From contig NZ_CP036532.1 in the NCBI RefSeq assembly GCF_004331955.1, positions 1,612,001-1,676,000 of the forward strand: a stretch of DNA of 64,000 nucleotides, in the 5' to 3' direction. Made by a program: the position numbers and the translations under genes. Under the pieces are notes generated by a model that saw only the letters and a program-made list of their open reading frames with translations, ran no database searches and had not been told where the DNA came from. The stretch comes from Roseitalea porphyridii (GTDB taxonomy: Bacteria; Pseudomonadota; Alphaproteobacteria; Rhizobiales; Rhizobiaceae). This document shows, in pieces, positions 14,693 through 40,997 of the stretch (positions are counted from its first letter, which is position 1; each line of letters starts with the position of its first letter).

Positions 14693-15006
14693 GGTTCGAT
14701 CCCTTCGGTGACCGGGCGCAGGAAGCTGCGCTCGTAACGGCGGATGCAGCCGGTGCGCCGGGCGAAATCGAAGGCGGCCCGGCAGTCGGCGTCGTCGAAC
14801 GATCGGGTCCGGTAGTCTTCGTAGCTGGCAAGGCTGTCGAAGGTGAAGCTGGCATAGGCGATGTCGCTTTCGCCCTCGGCCGGCAGCAGATAGCCATGGT
14901 GCTTGCCGCCGAACCGCTCGACGAGCGTGATCCACAGCCGCCCGTAATGCTCGAAATCGTCGATCCTGTCCGGATCGATCTCGTAGCGCAGAAAGCAGGT
15001 GATCAT
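14689..15006 (-). CDS. NIPSNAP family protein
   Basis: A 105-residue ferredoxin-like dimeric alpha/beta barrel protein of the NIPSNAP family: it opens MITCFLRYEIDPDRIDDFEH and carries FGGKHHGYLLPAEG and IAYASFTFDSLASYEDYR. The biochemical role is unknown for bacterial members. Its start overlaps the cysteine synthase stop by 4 nt (ATGA), and its own stop overlaps the alaX GTG start, so it is embedded in the sulfur operon. Confidence 0.82.
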   Translation of the reverse strand: MITCFLRYEIDPDRIDDFEHYGRLWITLVERFGGKHHGYLLPAEGESDIAYASFTFDSLASYEDYRTRSFDDADCRAAFDFARRTGCIRRYERSFLRPVTEGIEP

Positions 15007-16037
15007 CCGGCGTCCTCGAACGGCACGTCGATGTCGGCCGTGCGCTCCATCCATTCGGGCACCGGCAGCCCCTTTTCGCGCAGGAACGCGGGATTGTAGA
15101 TCTTGGACAGGTAGCGGTGGCCGTAGTCGCACAGGATCGTCACGATCGTATGGCCCGGCCCGAGTTCGCGCGCCATCGCCTTGGCGCCGGCGATGTTGAT
15201 GCCGGTCGATCCGCCCATCACCATGCCTTCCTCGTGCACCAGCTTGAAGATGATGTCGAGCGCCTCCTCGTCGCCGATCCGCCAGGCGAAATCGGGTGAA
15301 AAGCCCTCCAGATTGGCCGTCACCCGGCCCTGGCCGATGCCTTCGGTAAGCGAGGATCCCTCGGACTTGAACTCACCGGTCGTATAGAAGCTGTAGAGGG
15401 CGGCCCCGTGCGGGTCGGCGATGCCGATCTTGACGTCCTTGTTGCGCGCGCGCAGACCCTCGGCGACGCCGGCCAGCGTGCCGCCCGAGCCGACCGCGCA
15501 CACGAACCCGTCCACCTTGCCGTCCGTGTCGCGCCAGATTTCCGGCGCGGTCGCGTCGATGTGCGCCTGCCGATTGACGGTGTTGTCGAACTGGTTGGCC
15601 CAGATCGCCCCGTTCGGCTCGGATTTGGCCATCTGTTCGGCCAGCCGGCCCGAAAGCCGCACATAATTGTTGGGGTTGCGATAGGGAACGGCCGGCACCT
15701 CGACCAGTTCGGCCCCGCCCAGGCGCAGCGCGTCCTTCTTTTCCTGCGTCTGTGTTTCCGGGATGACGATCACCGTCCGGTAGCCGAGCGCCTTGGCGAC
15801 CATGGTCAACCCGATGCCGGTGTTGCCGGCCGTTCCCTCGACGATCACGCCGCCGGGCTTGAGCAGTCCCTTCTGCTCGGCGTCCCGGATGATCCAGAGC
15901 GCGGCGCGGTCCTTGACCGACTGGCCGGGATTGAGGAATTCGGCCTTTCCCAGGATCGTGCAGCCGGTCTCCTCGGAGGCGCGCTTGAGCTTGATCAGGG
16001 GCGTGTTGCCGATGAGATCGATGATCGAGGCATGCAT
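15003..16037 (-). CDS. cysK: Cysteine synthase (O-acetylserine sulfhydrylase family)
   Basis: A 344-residue PLP enzyme of the OASS family, making cysteine from O-acetylserine and sulfide. Motifs: IGNTPLIKL near the N-terminus, the PLP lysine in LNPGQSVKDRAA (~residue 42), EGTAGNTGIG, and AVGSGGTLAG for phosphate binding. It is about 30 residues longer than Escherichia CysK and has EGIGQGRVTANLEGF, features seen in a second rhizobial cysteine-synthase clade. It heads a five-gene operon with 4-nt overlaps or very short gaps down to the GNAT gene. A CBS-like activity cannot be excluded. Confidence 0.9.
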   Translation of the reverse strand: MHASIIDLIGNTPLIKLKRASEETGCTILGKAEFLNPGQSVKDRAALWIIRDAEQKGLLKPGGVIVEGTAGNTGIGLTMVAKALGYRTVIVIPETQTQEKKDALRLGGAELVEVPAVPYRNPNNYVRLSGRLAEQMAKSEPNGAIWANQFDNTVNRQAHIDATAPEIWRDTDGKVDGFVCAVGSGGTLAGVAEGLRARNKDVKIGIADPHGAALYSFYTTGEFKSEGSSLTEGIGQGRVTANLEGFSPDFAWRIGDEEALDIIFKLVHEEGMVMGGSTGINIAGAKAMARELGPGHTIVTILCDYGHRYLSKIYNPAFLREKGLPVPEWMERTADIDVPFEDAG

Positions 16038-16174
16038 GGAACTGGGGACTCCCGTCTTTGGGCGGAAGGCTAAAGGCGGCCCATCGGCGGGGCAAGGCAA
16101 TTATGCTGCGCAAACAAGGTGGTTGACGAATTGTTTGCCATGACCAAATGACTATCGAAAACCGCATTCGCCGG

Positions 16175-16203
16175 TGATCCGGTCCGTGTCTCGTCGCGTA
16201 GAC
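16175..16203 (+). promoter_or_regulatory. Candidate sigma-E (RpoE/ChrR-type) promoter of chrR-like gene
   Basis: TGATCC (16175-16180), exactly 18 nt, then TAGA at 16199-16202. The -35 hexamer and spacing equal those I recall for Rhodobacter sphaeroides sigma-E promoters (TGATCC, N18, TAAGA-like). The same element precedes the photolyase operon. The ChrR-like start codon follows 45 nt later. Confidence 0.65.
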
Positions 16204-16247
16204 GTTTCAGAAATGTGACACTGGGCGGCAGGGACCGCCATTTGGGG

Positions 16248-16895
16248 ATGACCATGTATCAGGGACAGTTCGGCACACTCGATGCGCTGGTAAGCGGATA
16301 TGTTGCGGGCAGCCTGCCAAGGCCGCTGCATGTTCTGATGGACGCGCATCTGGAGCTTTCGCCGGCCAATCGTCCCATCGTCGCCGGGCTCGAGGGCGTG
16401 GCGGGGGATGCGCTCGAACAGCTCGACCCGATGGAACTGGGCGATCGCGACGGCGCGCTGTCGGCGATCTTCGCCAGCACGACATCGGCCGAAACCGACC
16501 CGGTCAAGCGGTGCGGGACGATGCCGCGTGCGCTCGCCGACTTCGTCGGCCACTCGGTCGACGACATTCCGTGGAAGACCAAGATGCCCGGTTTCCGCGA
16601 GTATGACATGGAAGATGTCGACGGCTGCCATGTCTCGATGTTCTGGATCAAGCCGGGGCGCACGGTTCCCTCGCACACCCATGAAGGCATGGAACTGTCG
16701 CTGATCATCGACGGGGCCTTCCGCGACGAGCGCGGCCGTTTCGGGCGCGGCGACATCTCGATCGCCGACCCCTCGGTCGACCACCGTCCGGTGGCGGAAA
16801 GGGACGTGCCCTGCATCGGATTTGCGGTGACCGACGCGCCCTTGCGCCTGACCGGCTCGCTGCGCCAGCGCCTGAGCGACATTCTGGCGATCTGA
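16248..16895 (+). CDS. ChrR-like cupin anti-sigma factor with degenerate zinc-binding N-terminus
   Basis: A 215-residue homologue of ChrR, the zinc anti-sigma factor that holds RpoE until singlet oxygen appears. The C-terminal cupin domain (~95-200) keeps its metal ligands: HTH at H143/H145, E149, and the later histidine in VDHRP. The N-terminal anti-sigma domain is altered: where ChrR has H-x3-C-x2-C, this protein has HLELSPAN, with both cysteines replaced by Ser38 and Asn41, and no early histidine is seen. No ECF sigma gene is adjacent. It may have lost sigma binding and act as a cupin sensor or enzyme. ATG 16254 is an alternative start. Confidence 0.82.
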   Translation: MTMYQGQFGTLDALVSGYVAGSLPRPLHVLMDAHLELSPANRPIVAGLEGVAGDALEQLDPMELGDRDGALSAIFASTTSAETDPVKRCGTMPRALADFVGHSVDDIPWKTKMPGFREYDMEDVDGCHVSMFWIKPGRTVPSHTHEGMELSLIIDGAFRDERGRFGRGDISIADPSVDHRPVAERDVPCIGFAVTDAPLRLTGSLRQRLSDILAI

Positions 16896-16937: not shown

Positions 16938-16969
16938 CCCCGGTGCGTACCGCAACCGGGGTCTTTCTT
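16938..16969 (+). terminator. Rho-independent terminator after chrR-like gene
   Basis: CCCCGGTGCG, TAC loop, CGCAACCGGGG (one bulged A), then TCTTTCTT. It would separate the chrR-like transcript from the downstream SDR gene. Confidence 0.7.
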
Positions 16970-17021
16970 GTCGGCCGGACCGGCCCATATCCAACCGCAA
17001 GCCAGAAGAAGGGGTGCATCG

Positions 17022-17858
17022 ATGGACCTTTACAGGATCAAGGCCGGCGACGGGGTCGTCTGGATCACCGGCGCCAGCGCCGGCATCGGGCGCGCGGTCG
17101 CACTGAAGTTCGCCGAGAAGGGCTATGACGTCGTCGCCAGCGCGCGCAGCAAGGACAAGCTTGCCGCGCTCGCCGAGGAAAGCGGTCCGATGCTCGGCTC
17201 GATCGAGCCGTTCGCATGCGACGTGACCGACCGCGAGGGCATGAAGAAGGCGGTCGCCGAGATCGAGGCGGCGCACGGGCCCATCTGCCTTGCCATCTTC
17301 AACGCCGGCAATTACTGGCCGACGCGCGGCGAGGCGCTCGATATCGAGGCCTTCGACAAGACCTTCGGCATCAACTTCTTCGGCGTCCTGAACGGGCTGG
17401 TGCCCGCCGTCGAGCGCATGAAGGCGCACGGTAAAGGCCAGATCGTCATGGTCGGCTCGGTTTCGGGCTATTCGGGCCTGCCGGCGGCGGCGGCCTATGG
17501 CGCGTCGAAGGCGGCGATCAACAATTTCGGCGAGTCGCTCAAGTTCGACTTCGACAAGCTCAACATTCGCGTCCAGGTGGTCAATCCCGGCTTCATCGAC
17601 ACGCCGCTGACCGAAAAGAACCGGTTCGAGATGCCCGCGCTCATGCCCGTCGACAAGGCCGCGGCCGCGATGGTCGCCGGCATCGAGAATGGCGGTTTCG
17701 AGATCACCTTCCCGCGCCGCTTCACCTGGCTGCTGAAGATCATGCGGATGATGCCGCACCCGGTCTATTTCTTCGTGATGAAACGGGCGATGCGCTGGGA
17801 CAAGCAGGAACTGAAGTTCGGCGATACGACACCGGCCTCCGTGGTCAGGGAAAGCTAG
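17022..17858 (+). CDS. SDR family oxidoreductase
   Basis: A 278-residue short-chain dehydrogenase. It has the cofactor motif TGASAGIG (~residue 15), FNAGNYWP in place of NNAG, the catalytic serine in GSVSGYSG, and the YGASK active-site pair. The final ~60 residues carry a hydrophobic, basic tail (RRFTWLLKIMRMMPHPVYFF) that could sit at the membrane, as in lipid-modifying SDRs. AGAAGGGG precedes the ATG. Homologues of this type occur beside ChrR, FAD oxidoreductase, DUF1365 and CFA synthase genes, so a role in stress-linked fatty-acid modification is plausible but unproven. Its stop lies 3 bp from that of the convergent MFS gene. Confidence 0.86.
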   Translation: MDLYRIKAGDGVVWITGASAGIGRAVALKFAEKGYDVVASARSKDKLAALAEESGPMLGSIEPFACDVTDREGMKKAVAEIEAAHGPICLAIFNAGNYWPTRGEALDIEAFDKTFGINFFGVLNGLVPAVERMKAHGKGQIVMVGSVSGYSGLPAAAAYGASKAAINNFGESLKFDFDKLNIRVQVVNPGFIDTPLTEKNRFEMPALMPVDKAAAAMVAGIENGGFEITFPRRFTWLLKIMRMMPHPVYFFVMKRAMRWDKQELKFGDTTPASVVRES

Positions 17859-17861
17859 CTT

Positions 17862-19250
17862 TCAGCCCCGCGCAGGCGCCTCGATCGTGCGGCGCAGCGC
17901 GCCCTGTTCGGAGGCGTCGAGCGGGAAGTTCCACATCAGCGCGATGGCGCCCAGCTTCAGTCCGACGGGCACCAGCGAATAGATCACGGCCAGCGCGGTC
18001 AGTGCCGTCGCGCTCTGGTCAGGCCCGCCGCCGGTCTCAAAGCCGAACCAGCCGAGCACCGGAAACGCCAGACCGACCGCCAGCGCCAGCGAGAGCTTGG
18101 TCGCAAGGCTCCATGCCGCGAAATAGACCCCCGAGCGCTGCTCACCTGAGGCCGCCGTGTCGACATCGATCACGTCCGCCTGGATCGCCGGCGGAATGGC
18201 GAGATCGAAACCGACAAGCAGGCCGGTCGCCGCGCAGATGACGGCGAAGGCCGCGATGTCGCCCTCCGACAGCAGCGGCACCGGCGCGAAGATGATGCAG
18301 GCGGCGATCATGCCGAGCGACCAGGCGCGGTGCTTGCCGATCCGTTTGGAGGCGAACGCGGCGAGAGGCACGCCGGCGACACCGCACGCGAAGTAGAGGA
18401 ACAGAAGCGGCCCCTGCAGGTCGGTCGCGCCCAGATAGTCTCCGACGAAGAAGAGGAACAGCGTGGCCGGGATGCCGTTGGCGAGCCCGTTGACGAAGAA
18501 GGCCACGATCAACCGCAGGAACGGGCCGTTTTCGCGCAGGTGCCGCAGGCCTTCGCGCCAGCCGACCGGGGCCTTGGTGTGTTCGGCGGGCTCGGGCACG
18601 GCGACCACGGCCACCGCGCCGAAGACGGGCAGGGTCGCGGCGATGATCAGGCCGAGCAGCGCCAGCCCGTGAAAGCCCGCCGCGTCGTCGAAGCCCAGCG
18701 AGAAGGGCAGGGCGATGGCGATCAGCGTGCCGGTCAGCGTCAACCCCTCGCGCCAGCCGGTGATCGTCGACCGCGCGCCATAGTCGCCGGCCATCTCGGC
18801 GCCCCAGGCATAGAACGGGATGATCGCCGCCGTATAGCCGAGCGACAGGGCCATGCCCCATCCTGCCAGATAGAGAGGGCCCGCCCCTTCCGGCGGCCAG
18901 AACAGCATGAAGGCGGCCAGGGCGCAGATCGGCAGGGCGAGGGCGAACAGCCGGCGCCTGCGGCCGAACTTGCCGCGCCAGCGGTCGGCGACGATGCCGA
19001 TGAACGGATCGTTGAAGGCGTCGAACAGGCGAACAGCCAGCAAAGCCGCGCCCGTGGCGCCGAGCGACAGGCCGACCGGGCCCGAATAGAAGGCCGGCAG
19101 CAGGATGTAGAGCGGCAGCGTCAGGGCCGCCAGCGGCAGCGCCGGCAGCGCATAGGCGATGATGCGCGACAGGCGGGGCAGGTCGGAACTGGCCGTCGGA
19201 AGCGGCGCGCGCATCAGGATGCTTTCGGCTTGAGGGACATGCGCCTTCAA
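17862..19250 (-). CDS. MFS transporter of the GPH/MelB type
   Basis: A 462-residue transporter with about 12 membrane helices. The segment LLAVRLFDAFNDPFIGIVAD matches the GPH (glycoside-pentoside-hexuronide:cation symporter) motif, including the Asp residues that bind cation and sugar in MelB. The real substrate is unknown; GPH-like proteins in this gene context may move lipids rather than sugars. It is the last gene of the photolyase/CFA operon, 43 nt after the CFA-like gene. ATG 19214 is an alternative start. Confidence 0.82.
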   Translation of the reverse strand: MKAHVPQAESILMRAPLPTASSDLPRLSRIIAYALPALPLAALTLPLYILLPAFYSGPVGLSLGATGAALLAVRLFDAFNDPFIGIVADRWRGKFGRRRRLFALALPICALAAFMLFWPPEGAGPLYLAGWGMALSLGYTAAIIPFYAWGAEMAGDYGARSTITGWREGLTLTGTLIAIALPFSLGFDDAAGFHGLALLGLIIAATLPVFGAVAVVAVPEPAEHTKAPVGWREGLRHLRENGPFLRLIVAFFVNGLANGIPATLFLFFVGDYLGATDLQGPLLFLYFACGVAGVPLAAFASKRIGKHRAWSLGMIAACIIFAPVPLLSEGDIAAFAVICAATGLLVGFDLAIPPAIQADVIDVDTAASGEQRSGVYFAAWSLATKLSLALAVGLAFPVLGWFGFETGGGPDQSATALTALAVIYSLVPVGLKLGAIALMWNFPLDASEQGALRRTIEAPARG

Positions 19251-19293
19251 TACGCGGGCGCACGGCGAACGGTTCAGCCGACGGGACGCCCGT

Positions 19294-20574
19294 TCAGCCG
19301 TTGCGGGCGAAGGTCAGCTGCCGGACGTCGATGAACTCGGCGCGGAAGCCCGCCTCGCAATAGTATAGGTAGAACTCCCAGAGCCGCTTGAAGCGCTCGT
19401 CGAATCCCATCGCGTTGATCTGCGGCCAGGCCTGCCAGAACCGGTCGCGCCATTCCGACAGCGTGCGGGCGTAGTCCTGCGGGAAGATGCGTTCGCCGAT
19501 CAGCTGGAGCGCGTGGCGGGTGCCAAGATCGTGCAGTGCCGACGGCGGCGGCAGCATGCCGCCGGGGAACACGTAGCGCTGGATGAAGTCGGGCTGCTTG
19601 CGATAGATCGGGAAGGCCTTCTCGTCGATCGTGATGATCTGGAGGCCCGCCTTGCCGCCCGGCTTGAGGACGTCGCGGACCTTGGCGAAGTAGGTTTCCC
19701 AGTATTCTTCCCCGACCGCCTCGAACATCTCGATCGACACGACCTTGTCGTAGCGCTCGGTCTCGTCGCGATAGTCCTGGAACTTGATCGTGACCTTGTC
19801 GTTCAGGCCGGCGAGCCGGATGCGCTCGCGCGCGAAGTCGAACTGCTCGCGGCTGATCGTCAGTCCGGTCACGCGGCAGCCGATCTCGCGGGCGGCGAAC
19901 TCGGCAAAACCGCCCCAGCCGCACCCGATCTCCAGAACATGGTCGTCCCGGGTGATGCCCGCCGCCTCGGCGAGCGCGCGATACTTGGCCGCCTGGGCGC
20001 TTTCGAGGCTGTTGGCGCCGGTCTCGTAGAGCGCCGACGAATAGGTCATCGAGGGGTCGAGCCAGAGCGCGTAGAAATCATTGCCGAGGTCGTAGTGGGC
20101 GGCGATGTTCTTCTGGGCGCGCGTCTTGGTGTTGCGATTGAACCAGTGCCGGATGCGCGAGACGAACTTGACCGTCGCGCCCGCCCTTGCCAGCCGTTCC
20201 GACAGTTCCTCGTTGACGACGAACAGTTCGAGGAACGTCGTCACGTCCGGGCTCTCCCAGTCGCCGTCCATGTAGCTCTCGGCAACCCCGATCGTGCCGC
20301 CGGAGATCGCCTTCCGGGCCAGATTCCAGTTGTGCAGGATCAGGACGCCGTCCGGGCCCGGCGCGTGACCGTCGATGCGGACCGTGCGGCGGTCGGGCAG
20401 CCGGATCGTCAGCGATCCCTGCGGCAGGTGCAGCGCCGCGCGCAGCGCCAGCTTTGCCTTGAACGGAAGACCGCGCAGATAGCGGCCGATATTGTTCTTT
20501 GTCAGCGGTTCTGCGGCGGCGATCACCTCGCGCACCACGTCGCCCGAACCACGCATCATATTCGTTGAGGCCAT
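19294..20574 (-). CDS. Cyclopropane-fatty-acyl-phospholipid synthase family methyltransferase
   Basis: A 426-residue SAM-dependent enzyme of the CFA synthase family, which methylates or cyclopropanates double bonds of membrane phospholipid acyl chains. Motifs: HYDLGNDFYALWLDPSMTYS (~residue 145), the SAM loop LEIGCGWGGFAEFA (~195), and KVVSIEMFEAVGEEYWE (~255). An upstream in-frame ATG (20622) would add 16 residues. The gene sits directly after DUF1365 and an FAD oxidoreductase. In Rhodobacter such CFA-like enzymes belong to the sigma-E regulon, and one acts in furan fatty-acid synthesis, so a true cyclopropane product is not certain. Confidence 0.9.
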   Translation of the reverse strand: MASTNMMRGSGDVVREVIAAAEPLTKNNIGRYLRGLPFKAKLALRAALHLPQGSLTIRLPDRRTVRIDGHAPGPDGVLILHNWNLARKAISGGTIGVAESYMDGDWESPDVTTFLELFVVNEELSERLARAGATVKFVSRIRHWFNRNTKTRAQKNIAAHYDLGNDFYALWLDPSMTYSSALYETGANSLESAQAAKYRALAEAAGITRDDHVLEIGCGWGGFAEFAAREIGCRVTGLTISREQFDFARERIRLAGLNDKVTIKFQDYRDETERYDKVVSIEMFEAVGEEYWETYFAKVRDVLKPGGKAGLQIITIDEKAFPIYRKQPDFIQRYVFPGGMLPPPSALHDLGTRHALQLIGERIFPQDYARTLSEWRDRFWQAWPQINAMGFDERFKRLWEFYLYYCEAGFRAEFIDVRQLTFARNG

Positions 20575-20636
20575 CTTACCCGTCCGCCTGCCTGTTCCGG
20601 TCCCGGGGCGCGCGGCAGCCATACGCGCCTTGCCGT

Positions 20637-21500
20637 TTATTCGGCGGGGCCGGGCGCAGCGTCGTCATAGGAGACCGGTTGCGGCGGCTTGCCCCGCGAG
20701 ATGAATTTTGCGCCCTTGATCCATAATTTCAAGGCTTCCCAATGGATTCCGGCGACAACCTTAAGCGTCATGAAGGGCAGGCGCCCCACCTGACCGGCGA
20801 GTGAGGCGCTCGTCAGGGGCCGCGCCGTGCCCGAGAAGGTGGCCGACAGAACCGGGTCGGCGCCTTCGGTTTCGAGGATGCGCAGGCGCACCGTCTCGCC
20901 CGGCGGCACGATGCGGAAATGATATCGCATGCCCATCTCGATGAACGGGGAGACGTAGAAGATCTTGGTGCGCTCCTGGCGCAGTCCTGCGGGGCCGAGC
21001 TCGCCTCGTTCGACCTTGCACACATAGGTGTGCCGCTCGCCGAACGTGTTGCGAACCTCGTAGATGACCGTCGTCAGCGCCTCGGCACGATCATAGCAGA
21101 AATAGACCGACAGCGGGTTGAAGACGAAGCCCATCAGGCGCGGATAGGCCAGCAGCAGGATGCGTTCCGGCCGCCCAGCGCCCGCTTCCTCGGCCAGCCT
21201 CGCCGCATGGTCGCGCAGGCGCGCATGCCCGCCATCCGCCGGCAGATGATCGCCCTCGTGAAACGAGACCAGATTGCGCCGGTTGACGGAGAACAGCGCC
21301 GAGGCGCGGTCGGCTTCCTCCAGCCGGTCGAGGTCGAACAGGCCGGTGAACACCCGGTACGTGAACCGGTGTCCGAACGGTTTGAGGCGCGCATGCATGA
21401 CCTTGCCCGGATAGAGCAGGGCGGCCGCGTCCGGCGGCGCGAACAGCGCAACGCCGTCCGTCGCAGGACCATGGCCGGAAACTGTCACATGCGCGGTCAT
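20637..21500 (-). CDS. DUF1365 domain-containing protein
   Basis: A 287-residue protein covering the whole DUF1365 family. Conserved blocks: YPGKVMHARLKPFGHRFTYR near the N-terminus, LSVYFCYDR (~160), EVRNTFGERHTYV and the membrane-proximal end SLAGQVGRLPFMTLKVVAGI with WEALKLWIKGAKF. No enzyme activity is established for the family. It sits between the FAD oxidoreductase (9 nt away) and the CFA-like gene, an order kept in many proteobacteria, and so probably acts on the same lipid substrate. Confidence 0.9.
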   Translation of the reverse strand: MTAHVTVSGHGPATDGVALFAPPDAAALLYPGKVMHARLKPFGHRFTYRVFTGLFDLDRLEEADRASALFSVNRRNLVSFHEGDHLPADGGHARLRDHAARLAEEAGAGRPERILLLAYPRLMGFVFNPLSVYFCYDRAEALTTVIYEVRNTFGERHTYVCKVERGELGPAGLRQERTKIFYVSPFIEMGMRYHFRIVPPGETVRLRILETEGADPVLSATFSGTARPLTSASLAGQVGRLPFMTLKVVAGIHWEALKLWIKGAKFISRGKPPQPVSYDDAAPGPAE

Positions 21501-21509
21501 CTCGGCAGC

Positions 21510-22868
21510 CTACTCCGCCGCCACCGGCAGCGGCAAATCGACCGGCCGTGCGGCCGGCTCTTCGGACCGCCACGGAATGTGCCCGCCCAGGGCCTCCGCC
21601 GCCGCAAGACCCGAGCGCAGCCCGTCCTCATGGAAGCCGAAGCCGGTCCAGGCCCCGGCGAACCAGGTGTCGCGGCGCCCCTGGATCAGCGGCAGGCGCG
21701 CCTGCGCGGCGAGCGCGCCGGCGTCATATTGCGGGTGGTCGAACGTCCACTCGCCGAAGACGGTCCCCGGCGCGGGCTCGCGGGTCGGATTGAGCGTGAC
21801 GAAAAGCGGATAGCGCTGGTCGATGTTCTGCAGCCGGTTCATCCAGTAGGTCAGACAGATCTCGCTGTCATCGCCCGTGCCGCTGCTGCGCAGATAGTTC
21901 CACGCCGCCCACGCCGCGCGCCGGCAGGGCATGAAGCTGGGGTCGCGATGCAGCACGACCCGGTTGGGCTTGTAGGGAATGGCGGACAGGATGTCCGCTT
22001 CGTTGGCATCGGCATCGCCCAGCATGGCGAGCGCCTGGTCCGAGTGGCCGGCGATGACGACGGCGTCGAAATGCTCGCGTCCGTGCGCGGTCTCCACCAC
22101 CGCGCCGCCCGTTGCGGGCCGCTCGATGCGCGTCACCGGCGCGCCGCAACGGATGTCGCCGATCGGCGCGAGCAGCTTCGCAAGGTAGTTGCGCGAGCCG
22201 CCCGAGACCGTGCGCCAAAGCGGCGGGCGGGTTTCCATCAGCCGGTGGTTCTCGAAGAACTGGATGAAGGAGCGGGCGGGAAAGTCGAGCATCTTGACGC
22301 GCGGGGTCGACCAGATCGCCGCGGCCATCGGGATCAGATAGTCGTCGCGGAAGCGCTTCGAGAAGCGGCGTTCGGCCAGATAGTCGCCGATCGACAGCCG
22401 GTCCAGCATGCCGCTGTCGCGGTCGCGCCGCGCCTGTCGGTTGAACCGCAGGATCTCGCGCAGCATCCACAGAAAGCCCGGCGAGACGAGGTTCCGCTTC
22501 TGCGCGAACACGGTCAGGTAGTTCTGGCCGCACCATTCGCGCACGCCGCCGTCGAGCGACATCGAAAAGCTCATGTTGGTCGTCTCGCACGCAATGTCGA
22601 GATGATCGAACAGGGCGCACAGTTCGGGATAGTTGCGTTCGTTGAAGACGATGAAGCCCACATCGACCGGAATGTGCCTGCCGTCATAATCGACATCGAC
22701 CGTGCGCGTATGCCCGCCGGGCCGGTCGTCGGCCTCGTAGAGCGCGACCTGATGTCGGCGGGACAGCGACCAGGCCGCCGATGCGCCCGAAATTCCGCTG
22801 CCGATCACGGCCACACGCTTGCTCTGGCCGGACACGGCGAACTGCCCCGGCCCCGGTTTGATGTTCAC
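21510..22868 (-). CDS. FAD-dependent oxidoreductase (amine-oxidase-like fold)
   Basis: A 452-residue flavoprotein. The N-terminal dinucleotide motif VIGSGISGASAAWSLSRRH is followed by YEADDRPGGHTRTV, the ribose-binding loop typical of amine-oxidase/desaturase-like enzymes. The C-terminal FAD contact is WFAGAWTGFGFHEDGLRSGL. Homologues beside CFA synthase and DUF1365 are thought to oxidise fatty-acyl chains. The start is GTG, overlapping the photolyase TGA (GTGA), so translation is coupled. The protein is likely soluble or peripherally membrane-bound; no signal peptide was seen. Confidence 0.9.
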   Translation of the reverse strand: MNIKPGPGQFAVSGQSKRVAVIGSGISGASAAWSLSRRHQVALYEADDRPGGHTRTVDVDYDGRHIPVDVGFIVFNERNYPELCALFDHLDIACETTNMSFSMSLDGGVREWCGQNYLTVFAQKRNLVSPGFLWMLREILRFNRQARRDRDSGMLDRLSIGDYLAERRFSKRFRDDYLIPMAAAIWSTPRVKMLDFPARSFIQFFENHRLMETRPPLWRTVSGGSRNYLAKLLAPIGDIRCGAPVTRIERPATGGAVVETAHGREHFDAVVIAGHSDQALAMLGDADANEADILSAIPYKPNRVVLHRDPSFMPCRRAAWAAWNYLRSSGTGDDSEICLTYWMNRLQNIDQRYPLFVTLNPTREPAPGTVFGEWTFDHPQYDAGALAAQARLPLIQGRRDTWFAGAWTGFGFHEDGLRSGLAAAEALGGHIPWRSEEPAARPVDLPLPVAAE

Positions 22869-24340
22869 GCGGCTTGCCCCCTCATCTCGTTGTAGGCGTC
22901 GAGCGCACGTTCGCGCGCCCGCTTGTGTTCGACCATAGGTTCCGGATAGGTGCTGCCAAGGCTAACCTTCGCTTTTTCCAGCACTTTTCGCGGCGCTTCC
23001 CACGGCTTGTGGATGTACTTGTCCGGCAGATCGGAAAGTTCCGGCACGAACCGGCGCACATATGCGCCGTCCGGATCGAACTTCTCGCCCTGCAGGATCG
23101 GATTGAAGATGCGGAAATAGGGCGCCGCATCGGCGCCCGATCCGGCGACCCATTGCCAGCTTGCCGCGTTCGAGGCCGGATCGCCGTCGACGAGCGTGTC
23201 CCAGAACCAGTCCTCGCCCCGGCGCCAGTCGATCATCAGATGCTTGATCAGGAACGATGCCGTGATCATCCGCACCCGGTTGTGCATCCACCCCGTCTGC
23301 CAGAGTTGGCGCATGCCCGCATCGACGATCGGATAGCCGGTTCGGCCCTTATGCCATGCCTCGAGCGCGTCCTCCGACCCCTCCCAGGGAAAGGCGTCGA
23401 ACGTGTCGTTGAAATTGGCCGTGCGCAGGTCCGGAAAGTTGACGAGGAGGTGATAGGAGAACTCGCGCCAGGCGAGTTCCTTGTGGAATTTCTCCAGTTG
23501 CTTCTTCGCCACGCCCTCGGCCGCCGCGGCCGCGTACCAGATGTCCGATGGCGTGATTTCGCCGAACGCCAGATGTGGCGACAGGCGCGAGGTGCCGTCG
23601 ACCCCGGGCAGGTCGCGCTTCCTGCCGTAGTCGGCCAGCGCGTCGGCGCAGAACGCCTTCAGCCGTTCATGCGCGCCCTTTTCGCCCGGCGTCCAGGTCG
23701 CCGCGATGCCACCCGACCAGTCCGGCCCGGTCGGCAGCAGGTCCCAGTCAGCCAGGTCGTCGCTTTCGATCGTGCCGTCGTAAGCGGTCGCCGTTCCAGG
23801 CGCCGGATCAGGCCTGCGCGGCTCGCCTTCGCCGATAAAGGCCCGCCAGAAGGGAGAATAGACCTTGTAATAGCCGCCCGAGCCGGTCTTCAGCTTCGTC
23901 GGCTCGTGCATCAGCGCGCCGGCAAAGCTCTTCACTGTCAGGCCGCGATCGGCGAGCGATGCCTTGATCTCGCTGTCGAGTGCGATCGCCTCGGGCCCGT
24001 AGCGGCGGTTCCACACCACGCTCTGCGCGCCGGTTCGGTTGATGATGTCGTCGAGCACGGCGCGCGGGTCGCCCCGGCGCAGGATCAGCGTCAGGCCGAT
24101 ACCGCCGAGCGCCGACCCGAGCGCGGTCAGCGAATGATGCAGCCACCAGCGCTGCGCGCCGCCGGGCGGCCGGCCGCTCGCGCCGGTCTCGTCCAGCACG
24201 AACAGGGCGATCACCGGCCTGCCCGACGCGGCGGCCGCCGACAACGCGCCATTGTCACGCAGACGCAGGTCGGCGCGAAACCAGACGATGACGGGCGCGT
24301 CGGGCAGGTCCGTCGGTCGCGTGCGGTCTTGGTCAGGCAT
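22865..24340 (-). CDS. phrB: Deoxyribodipyrimidine photolyase
   Basis: A 491-residue class I CPD photolyase/cryptochrome-family protein that repairs UV pyrimidine dimers with blue light. The N-terminal antenna domain opens VIVWFRADLRLRDNGAL; the FAD domain shows AWREFSYHLL, WHKGRTGYPIVDAGMRQLWQ, WMHNRVRMITASFLIKHLM and NAASWQWVAGSG, the photolyase signature. It heads an operon with four likely lipid-modification or transport genes. An upstream TGATCC-N18-TAG element resembles a sigma-E promoter, matching the known photo-oxidative-stress control of phrA in Rhodobacter. ATG 24340 was used; the codon before it is TTG. Confidence 0.94.
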   Translation of the reverse strand: MPDQDRTRPTDLPDAPVIVWFRADLRLRDNGALSAAAASGRPVIALFVLDETGASGRPPGGAQRWWLHHSLTALGSALGGIGLTLILRRGDPRAVLDDIINRTGAQSVVWNRRYGPEAIALDSEIKASLADRGLTVKSFAGALMHEPTKLKTGSGGYYKVYSPFWRAFIGEGEPRRPDPAPGTATAYDGTIESDDLADWDLLPTGPDWSGGIAATWTPGEKGAHERLKAFCADALADYGRKRDLPGVDGTSRLSPHLAFGEITPSDIWYAAAAAEGVAKKQLEKFHKELAWREFSYHLLVNFPDLRTANFNDTFDAFPWEGSEDALEAWHKGRTGYPIVDAGMRQLWQTGWMHNRVRMITASFLIKHLMIDWRRGEDWFWDTLVDGDPASNAASWQWVAGSGADAAPYFRIFNPILQGEKFDPDGAYVRRFVPELSDLPDKYIHKPWEAPRKVLEKAKVSLGSTYPEPMVEHKRARERALDAYNEMRGQAA

Positions 24341-24395
24341 CAAGCGGAAGGAAATCCGGATCGGAATGTGGAATCGTCGGGCGGGTCATCGAACG

Positions 24396-24424
24396 TGCTA
24401 CGCCCGCCGCGGGCGTGTGGATCA
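24396..24424 (-). promoter_or_regulatory. Candidate sigma-E promoter of the photolyase operon
   Basis: On the minus strand: TGATCC (24424-24419), 18 nt, then TAGCA (24400-24396). It has the same hexamer and spacing as the element before the chrR-like gene, and lies about 56 nt upstream of the phrB ATG. The N18 spacer also contains a GC-rich dyad (CGCCCGC/GCGGGCG). Confidence 0.65.
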
Positions 24425-24434
24425 GCGCCGATGA

Positions 24435-25469
<1,035 letters not shown>

Positions 25470-39878: not shown

Positions 39879-40418
39879 GGCCGTCACCCGACCCGCACCC
39901 TCATGCAACCCGCGCGCGCCGGCCGCTTGCCCGACGCACGCACCGAGCCTGTTCCGCCATGGCGTGACCATGGCCGGCAAAGCTTCGGTCTGACTTGTGA
40001 ACCTGTTCGACGCCCCGTCCGGGAGTAGTGTCGACCCTGGCGGCCGCCTACCTTATCTAGTGGTTAGCAAGGCTGTAAACCTCTAAATATTGAGTTAACA
40101 GCCTGGTCTGATCCCCTCTCGATGATCCCCCGTACCGCACGCAAGACGCAGGAACCCGTGCCCGGATGTGACGGATTGACCGTCAATGCCGCGCTGAAAC
40201 GCCAACATGAACGCTGAAGTGGACCGGCGATCCGAGCCGCCGGACGTGCGCTCAACGTCGCACAACCGTCATAAAAAGCGACTCGGCGGAGCCGGTCAAG
40301 AGCTTGGTTGGCGCAAACGCAAATCCACTATATCTGGTAGGGCCTCTGGCGGGGATAGCGGGGATAGGGCTTAAATTTCGGTAAAGGCCCTTGCGGGAAC
40401 GAAAGAAGCCAAGCAGCC
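39879..40418. other. Non-coding stretch between nrdJ and a divergent hypothetical gene
   Basis: About 540 bp with no supportable gene. It holds an interrupted palindrome at 40071-40103, a GGCGGGGATAGCGGGGATAGGG direct repeat near 40347-40370, and no recognisable cobalamin riboswitch. Confidence 0.6.
40071..40103. promoter_or_regulatory. Interrupted palindrome with AT-rich core
   Basis: GGCTGTAAAC, 13 bp (CTCTAAATATTGA), GTTAACAGCC: arms match at 9 of 10 positions. It lies between divergent genes, about 230 bp from nrdJ and 315 bp from the hypothetical gene. The binding factor is unknown. Confidence 0.45.
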
Positions 40419-40997
40419 ATGGCGCACATCCCGCAAATCCGGGCCCGCAGGCGCATCGTCGCGGCCGCGATCGCCGTGCCGACCGCGATGTTCGTGCTGC
40501 CGATGCCCGATCCGGACGACGCGATCGGGGCGAATCGCCTTTTTTCGGCGTCAACCATGGCTTCCGACGTTTCATCGGGAAAACGGGCCGGTCTGCCCGT
40601 CCTGCCGGTCGCCGACGCCCGTACCATCACCGTCGATTCGGACTTCGAGGATCGCTTCGGCTTCCTCGTCCCGCAGCCTTTCTCCCTCGATCTGCCCGAT
40701 CCCGGCGACGGCGAGATCAAATTGGCCTATCCGGACACCGCTGGCGGGGTCTATCTCCGCATCAGCATCTCGACGCTGGAAGGCGTCGGCATCTATACCC
40801 TGTCCGGCACCCACGCCGTGGTGCTGAACGGCACCTATCGGGATCCGCGGGCCGGCGACATCGCCGTGCGCATCTACGGCATCATGCACAAGCGTGGCGT
40901 GAACGGTCTGATCTTCTATGAACGCCGTTATGTCGAGCGGGCGCCGGCGTCCGCCCGCTTCAGCGAACAGATCGTCCGCAGCGTGGTGTTCCAATAG
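40419..40997 (+). CDS. Hypothetical exported protein
   Basis: Not recognised. A 192-residue protein whose N-terminus is basic then hydrophobic (RARRRIVAAAIAVPTAMFVL), consistent with a signal peptide or a membrane anchor. The middle 55-65 residues are low-complexity and the C-terminal ~120 residues are strand-rich (VYLRISISTLEGVGIYTLSG, then DIAVRIYGIMHKRG and LIFYERRYVERAP), perhaps a small beta-sandwich. It stands alone, transcribed away from nrdJ, and converges on the Nudix gene 30 nt downstream. Confidence 0.65.
   Translation: MAHIPQIRARRRIVAAAIAVPTAMFVLPMPDPDDAIGANRLFSASTMASDVSSGKRAGLPVLPVADARTITVDSDFEDRFGFLVPQPFSLDLPDPGDGEIKLAYPDTAGGVYLRISISTLEGVGIYTLSGTHAVVLNGTYRDPRAGDIAVRIYGIMHKRGVNGLIFYERRYVERAPASARFSEQIVRSVVFQ

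Follow-up and report, generated by a model that had tools for sequence, protein, structure and literature searches.

The closest described counterpart of the protein studied here is ChrR of R. sphaeroides, which acts on the ECF11 sigma factor RpoE (SigE). Its anti-sigma domain (ASD) binds zinc through H6, H31, C35 and C38, the ligands of its cupin domain are H141, H143, E147 and H177, the ASD zinc is required for inhibition and the response in vivo depends on the cupin (PMC6852236). Singlet oxygen reacts rapidly with the zinc site at the N-terminus, the role of which is described as debated (PMC6432622). Singlet-oxygen-dependent turnover of ChrR needs RSP1090 and RSP1091 (PMC3818230), known as UfaO and UfaD from furan fatty acid synthesis (PMC7380195). 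Singlet-oxygen sensing by ChrR being unsettled, a natural lineage with the cupin site but not the zinc site uncouples the two. Class I anti-sigma factors bind sigma4 through helix 1 and sigma2 through helix 4, and the zinc motif is missing in ~44% of these proteins (PMC7406223); the example of RseA shows that a stable anti-sigma fold does not depend on zinc (PMC6852236). Because zinc-free anti-sigma domains are common, loss of the zinc need not mean loss of sigma binding. Both zinc-free anti-sigma factors and ECF sigma factors without a linked anti-sigma gene are thus already known; for EcfQ (ECF33) of Bradyrhizobium japonicum, regulation solely by its own transcription has been proposed (PMC3420878).

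In this study, we analysed a stretch of 64,000 nucleotides of the Roseitalea porphyridii genome (the window) that encodes a ChrR-like protein. A preliminary description had read this protein as a cupin sensor freed from sigma binding. On balance, we find it probable that it is a zinc-independent anti-sigma factor of the ChrR type whose target in trans is an unlinked ECF11 sigma factor, and that it is made, as a feedback component, under that same sigma. In the open literature searched we found no description of a zinc-less, unlinked ChrR strictly co-inherited with a sigma factor; an earlier mention is possible.

Reading frame, metal sites and fold of the ChrR-like protein

The open frame at 16248-16895 (+) is a real ORF encoding a ChrR-family protein. 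Residues 12-206 match TIGR02451 (ChrR family anti-sigma-E factor) with 138.2 bits against a curated cut-off of 124.5, and the protein aligns end to end with R. sphaeroides ChrR (PDB 2z2s_B, E=9e-39); with the ChrR equivalog NF051881 it scores 114.3 bits, below the cut-off of 300. Its nearest named relatives belong to Roseitalea sp. (79%) and Oricola (60%), and a plasmid collection held only canonical-level relatives of 31-33% identity. The 3.54-Mb single-contig genome encodes no second TIGR02451 protein at E 1e-3.

Translation probably starts at ATG 16254 and yields 213 aa (M-Y-Q-G), since relatives and a Shine-Dalgarno-like GGGG point there; the Roseitalea orthologue at locus L013 has no start available earlier than the equivalent of this ATG. 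Residue numbers are therefore 2 lower than in the preliminary description, according to which a start codon restoring a normal domain would speak against zinc loss. None was found. The in-frame GTG 16215 was rejected because it lies too near, 15 bases past, the -10-like CGTA (16197-16200) and is absent from L013. A pseudogene is ruled out by the open frame, purifying selection and clade-wide conservation.

Alignment with 2z2s_B bears out the loss of the zinc site. ChrR H31, C35 and C38 correspond to H34, S38 and N41 in the preliminary numbering, giving H-S-N in place of H-C-C; a histidine matching ChrR H6 is absent, and the protein lacks the ZAS motif H-x24-H-x3-C-x2-C. The cupin ligands H143, H145 and E149 of that numbering are kept as had been described, together with H179, a further ligand that had been omitted (H141, H143, E147 and H177 in ours). 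We compared 72 divergent proteins, 42 from a first set in the same family and 30 from other families of the order. Cysteine stands at neither position in any of them (0/72), so its loss is more than chance, and the early histidine is lost as well. The middle ASD histidine is retained in 68/72, and the cupin ligands H, H, E, H together with C187 are present in 72/72. All 30 canonical ChrR proteins examined have the ASD histidine and the first cysteine, and 29 have the second. No substitute for the ASD zinc was identified in the ChrR-like protein.

An AlphaFold2 model built with 36 relatives (pLDDT 92) places helices 9-18, 23-35 and 37-56 in a bundle, followed by helix 4 and the cupin. The four-helix ASD, a three-helix bundle plus helix 4 as in class I anti-sigma domains, is hence predicted to be intact, although homology alone would yield this fold in a sigma-binding and a non-binding protein alike. 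The best PDB matches in Foldseek are the ChrR chains of the SigE-ChrR complex (2q1z/2z2s; TM 0.82-0.83 by target, rmsd ~4), so that the structural comparison with ChrR proposed in the preliminary description favours an anti-sigma fold. The ASD changes faster than the cupin, which is the best conserved part (dN/dS 0.06-0.34 and 0.02-0.17, respectively), and dN of the linker is several times higher. Helix-1 residues D10, L12, L13, Y16, G19 and L21 are common to the divergent clade and canonical ChrR.

Table 1. Features of the ChrR-like gene and its surroundings (window positions)
Feature	Position	Strand	Basis or source
cysK-like PLP enzyme, divergent neighbour in 42/42 loci	15003..16100	-	
ECF11-type promoter TGATCC-N16-CGTA in front of the ChrR-like gene	16175..16200	+	
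ChrR-like protein gene, 213 aa, zinc-less ASD and cupin domain	16254..16895	+	
Three-helix anti-sigma bundle (residues 9-56) without H/HCC zinc ligands	16278..16421	+	AlphaFold2, residue counts
Helix 4 (residues 65-74); contacts sigma region 2 in class I anti-sigma factors	16446..16475	+	AlphaFold2; role PMC7406223
Cupin domain (residues 105-200): H141, H143, E147, H177, invariant C187	16566..16853	+	AlphaFold2, residue counts
Short-chain dehydrogenase (SDR) downstream, possibly co-transcribed; 40/42 loci	16968..17858	+	
MFS/GPH transporter, same cluster, 25/42 loci	17862..19250	-	
Cyclopropane-fatty-acid-synthase (CFA) family methyltransferase; candidate UfaM counterpart	19294..20622	-	PMC7380195
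DUF1365 protein; candidate UfaO (RSP1090) counterpart by family and position	20637..21500	-	PMC7380195
FAD amine-oxidase-like protein; candidate R. sphaeroides UfaD (RSP1091) counterpart by family and position	21510..22868	-	PMC7380195
DNA photolyase	22865..24343	-	
Second exact ECF11-type promoter, ahead of photolyase-led operon	24399..24424	-	

The divergent clade, its locus and ECF11-type promoters

ChrR matches in 200 genomes of the same family form two sets, canonical at ~175-244 bits and divergent at ~117-156 bits, and the tree separates canonical from divergent ChrR with an SH-aLRT of 100. The zinc-less ChrR is an order-wide clade and not a single oddity. In genome G563 (88% complete) the gene matches as two adjoining pieces (C1:5121977-5122596), and as these lie in different frames it is probably frameshifted.

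Next to the divergent ChrR gene, cysK and SDR genes are near-constant companions (Table 1), and the CFA, DUF1365, FAD and MFS genes lie nearby in only 25-26 of 42 loci examined. The divergent pairing with the cysK-like gene (15003-16254), conserved in all 42, is left without explanation here. The names UfaD, UfaO and UfaM are applied to window genes by family and position, not by direct sequence comparison. Together with the photolyase, these genes are likely targets of the sigma lineage termed ECF11b below and resemble the core ECF11 regulon. A 238-aa ORF without Pfam match (24333-25049, -) overlaps the photolyase promoter region; among the loci searched it has a relative only in L013 (50%).

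The sigma-E regulon is marked by promoters of the TGATCC-N16-CGTA type, and one stands at 16175-16200. The ChrR-like gene is therefore probably made under a sigma-E-like factor, as the preliminary description had supposed. The exact element occurs 5 times in the whole 3.54-Mb genome, its reversed control 0 times; across the 42 divergent loci it was counted 48 times (spacer 15-17) versus 0 for the control. By automatic count it precedes the ChrR-like gene in ~38/42 loci, and L079, L082 and L084 have near-matches only. A slightly looser pattern places it ahead of 28/30 canonical rpoE genes. Upstream of the ECF11b gene, the full motif was found in 0/74 loci and imperfect matches in 3/74; judged from sequence, this gene appears not to be self-transcribed from an ECF11-type promoter. 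As the promoter stands before the ChrR-like gene and not before the sigma gene, the former is the regulated half of the pair.

A one-mismatch search across the window gave no excess over chance, and for this reason we relied on exact matches, on orthology and on the count in the whole genome alone. A one-mismatch element (19251-19276, -) lies directly before the MFS transporter start, and L046 has an exact element before its MFS gene. Another exact element (40109-40134, +) lies 285 bases before a 192-aa ORF (40419-40997) and may be due to chance. Exact elements also occur at L118 (C1:1840300, -) and L119 (C1:2166949, +), one of them preceding a 138-aa ORF with a signal-peptide-like start.

The unlinked sigma factor and its co-inheritance

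The ChrR-like gene adjoins no ECF gene, in agreement with the preliminary description. The single ECF11-like sigma of the genome (C1:3401040-3401693) is encoded 1.77 Mb away; its best PDB match is R. sphaeroides SigE of the SigE-ChrR complex (E=2e-44), and the other ECFs of the genome reach at most 52 bits against it. Among its neighbours, all named by eye, are a gene resembling rlmN, one for a secreted protein and one of DUF1232-like or lipoprotein type, but none that we could recognise as an anti-sigma gene.

This sigma belongs to a separate lineage, ECF11b (at least 198 bits with the ECF11 protein query), found in 44/200 genomes of the same family. All 43 genomes with a divergent ChrR have it, and G053 (88% complete) alone carries ECF11b but not the partner. 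The two genes lie within 2 kb of each other in 0/43 genomes, the closest pair being 1.1 Mb apart; canonical chrR lies within 2 kb of its ECF11 gene (rpoE) in 49/49. Genomes G103 and G175 hold both pairs, each in its own linkage state. Order-wide, a divergent ChrR is present in 59 of 60 selected ECF11b-like genomes, a selection that includes G053, again the exception, and the split-gene G563. Their partners are on different contigs or at least ~1 Mb apart, as compared by hand from the listed coordinates. An anti-sigma partner may thus be missed by neighbour-only searches, since each zinc-less ChrR with a compared position is far from its sigma.

Both partners also switch together between close genomes: in f1 g59 (G058/G146), f1 g105 (G177/G105), f11 (G209/G256), f20 g128 (G401/G263), f27 (G424/G382), f34 (G232/G505), f35 (G506/G447), f42 (G566/G432) and f45 (G316/G243). 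Having been picked by hand, these nine within-genus or within-family contrasts are an indication and not a formal test. Fisher's p for the pairing is 4e-43, a value that ignores relatedness among genomes that are not independent samples. Tree distances of the ChrR-like protein and the sigma correlate modestly (partial r 0.56 with CysK as an imperfect species control; ASD alone 0.33, below the cupin at 0.57), and mirror-tree coevolution is not relied on as proof.

Identity of the sigma with EcfQ/ECF33 was considered and is not supported: in the comparison made, which covered three large f35 genomes, no other ECF exceeds 72 bits, versus 126-132 for the chrR-linked ECF11.

Proposed regulation, alternatives and known systems

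In the mechanism that we propose, the helical domain of the ChrR-like protein would hold the ECF11 sigma in the resting cell. The cupin domain would respond to singlet oxygen or to lipid products of it, probably by setting off turnover of the ChrR-like protein, as R. sphaeroides does with ChrR. Once released, the sigma would transcribe the photolyase gene, the furan-fatty-acid-like genes and also the gene for its inhibitor, so that the circuit would limit itself by negative feedback. We infer direct binding and inhibition of ECF11b by the ChrR-like protein; signal and release would presumably run through the cupin.

The reading first suggested, in which the protein has given up sigma binding and its cupin serves the singlet-oxygen response as an effector, enzyme or repair factor induced by sigma-E, would fit the absence of zinc ligands that are essential in R. 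sphaeroides ChrR (PMC6852236), the superior conservation of the cupin, the ECF11 promoter in front and the locus shared with photolyase and furan-fatty-acid-like genes. We nevertheless regard this as rather unlikely, and the evidence does not support release from sigma binding. No second ChrR-family protein is encoded in the genome, and its lone ECF11 sigma, which has no neighbouring anti-sigma, would be left without a known one. The ASD helices, folded by prediction, are under purifying selection in every pair tested and keep their signature clade-wide. Inheritance with the sigma lineage is order-wide and could also stem from regulon membership, but in L079, L082 and L084, which lack an exact promoter, the ChrR-like gene still follows the sigma, and other members of the cluster, unlike the ChrR-like protein, are missing from many loci (CFA is found in 26/42, FAD in 25/42).

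A decoy or anti-anti-sigma, in which the zinc-less protein still touches the sigma or a different protein and promotes release instead of holding the sigma, agrees with its synthesis under the sigma and with its being the regulated half of a pair whose sigma gene has no ECF11 promoter (0/74 for the full motif). It is improbable, given that most of these genomes offer it no canonical ChrR as an opponent; within the family sample one is present in G103 and G175 only, and there it sits beside its own sigma. Slightly less probable still is an ECF11b regulated solely by its own transcription, as proposed for EcfQ, with co-inheritance that stems from a common clade history or from a conserved locus. 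There are ECFs that lack a linked anti-sigma gene, one of them ROS-induced, but strict pairing across many families, joint switching within genera and genomes with both pairs argue against it, and EcfQ-type sigmas are, as far as could be judged, not the closest relatives of the query.

Beyond zinc-independent inhibition in trans at this locus, the clade may represent an ancient, order-wide second system for singlet oxygen, with a zinc-free ChrR that controls an unlinked, non-self-transcribed ECF11 in trans and senses by the cupin only; this we hold as a tentative view, possible rather than probable. If sensing is by the cupin only, this lineage would have no need of the zinc finger, whose part as singlet-oxygen sensor is debated.

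Like EcfQ, ECF11b is a ROS-related ECF without a linked anti-sigma gene, but it falls into a different ECF group and has a co-inherited, unlinked candidate partner, whereas EcfQ has no known one. With the zinc-free class I anti-sigma factors RseA of E. coli and RskA of M. tuberculosis the ChrR-like protein shares a helical anti-sigma domain without zinc. RseA and RskA are membrane anchored and have no cupin; the ChrR-like protein, in contrast, appears soluble and ChrR-derived. With the ZAS-containing RpoE(SigE)-ChrR system of R. sphaeroides it has in common the TIGR02451 family, the ASD and cupin architecture, the H, H, E, H cupin ligands, the promoter type and the furan-fatty-acid-like and photolyase neighbours. 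It differs from that system in that the ASD zinc ligands are gone, its gene is unlinked to the sigma, the sigma gene is without an ECF11 promoter and both partners belong to a separate clade.
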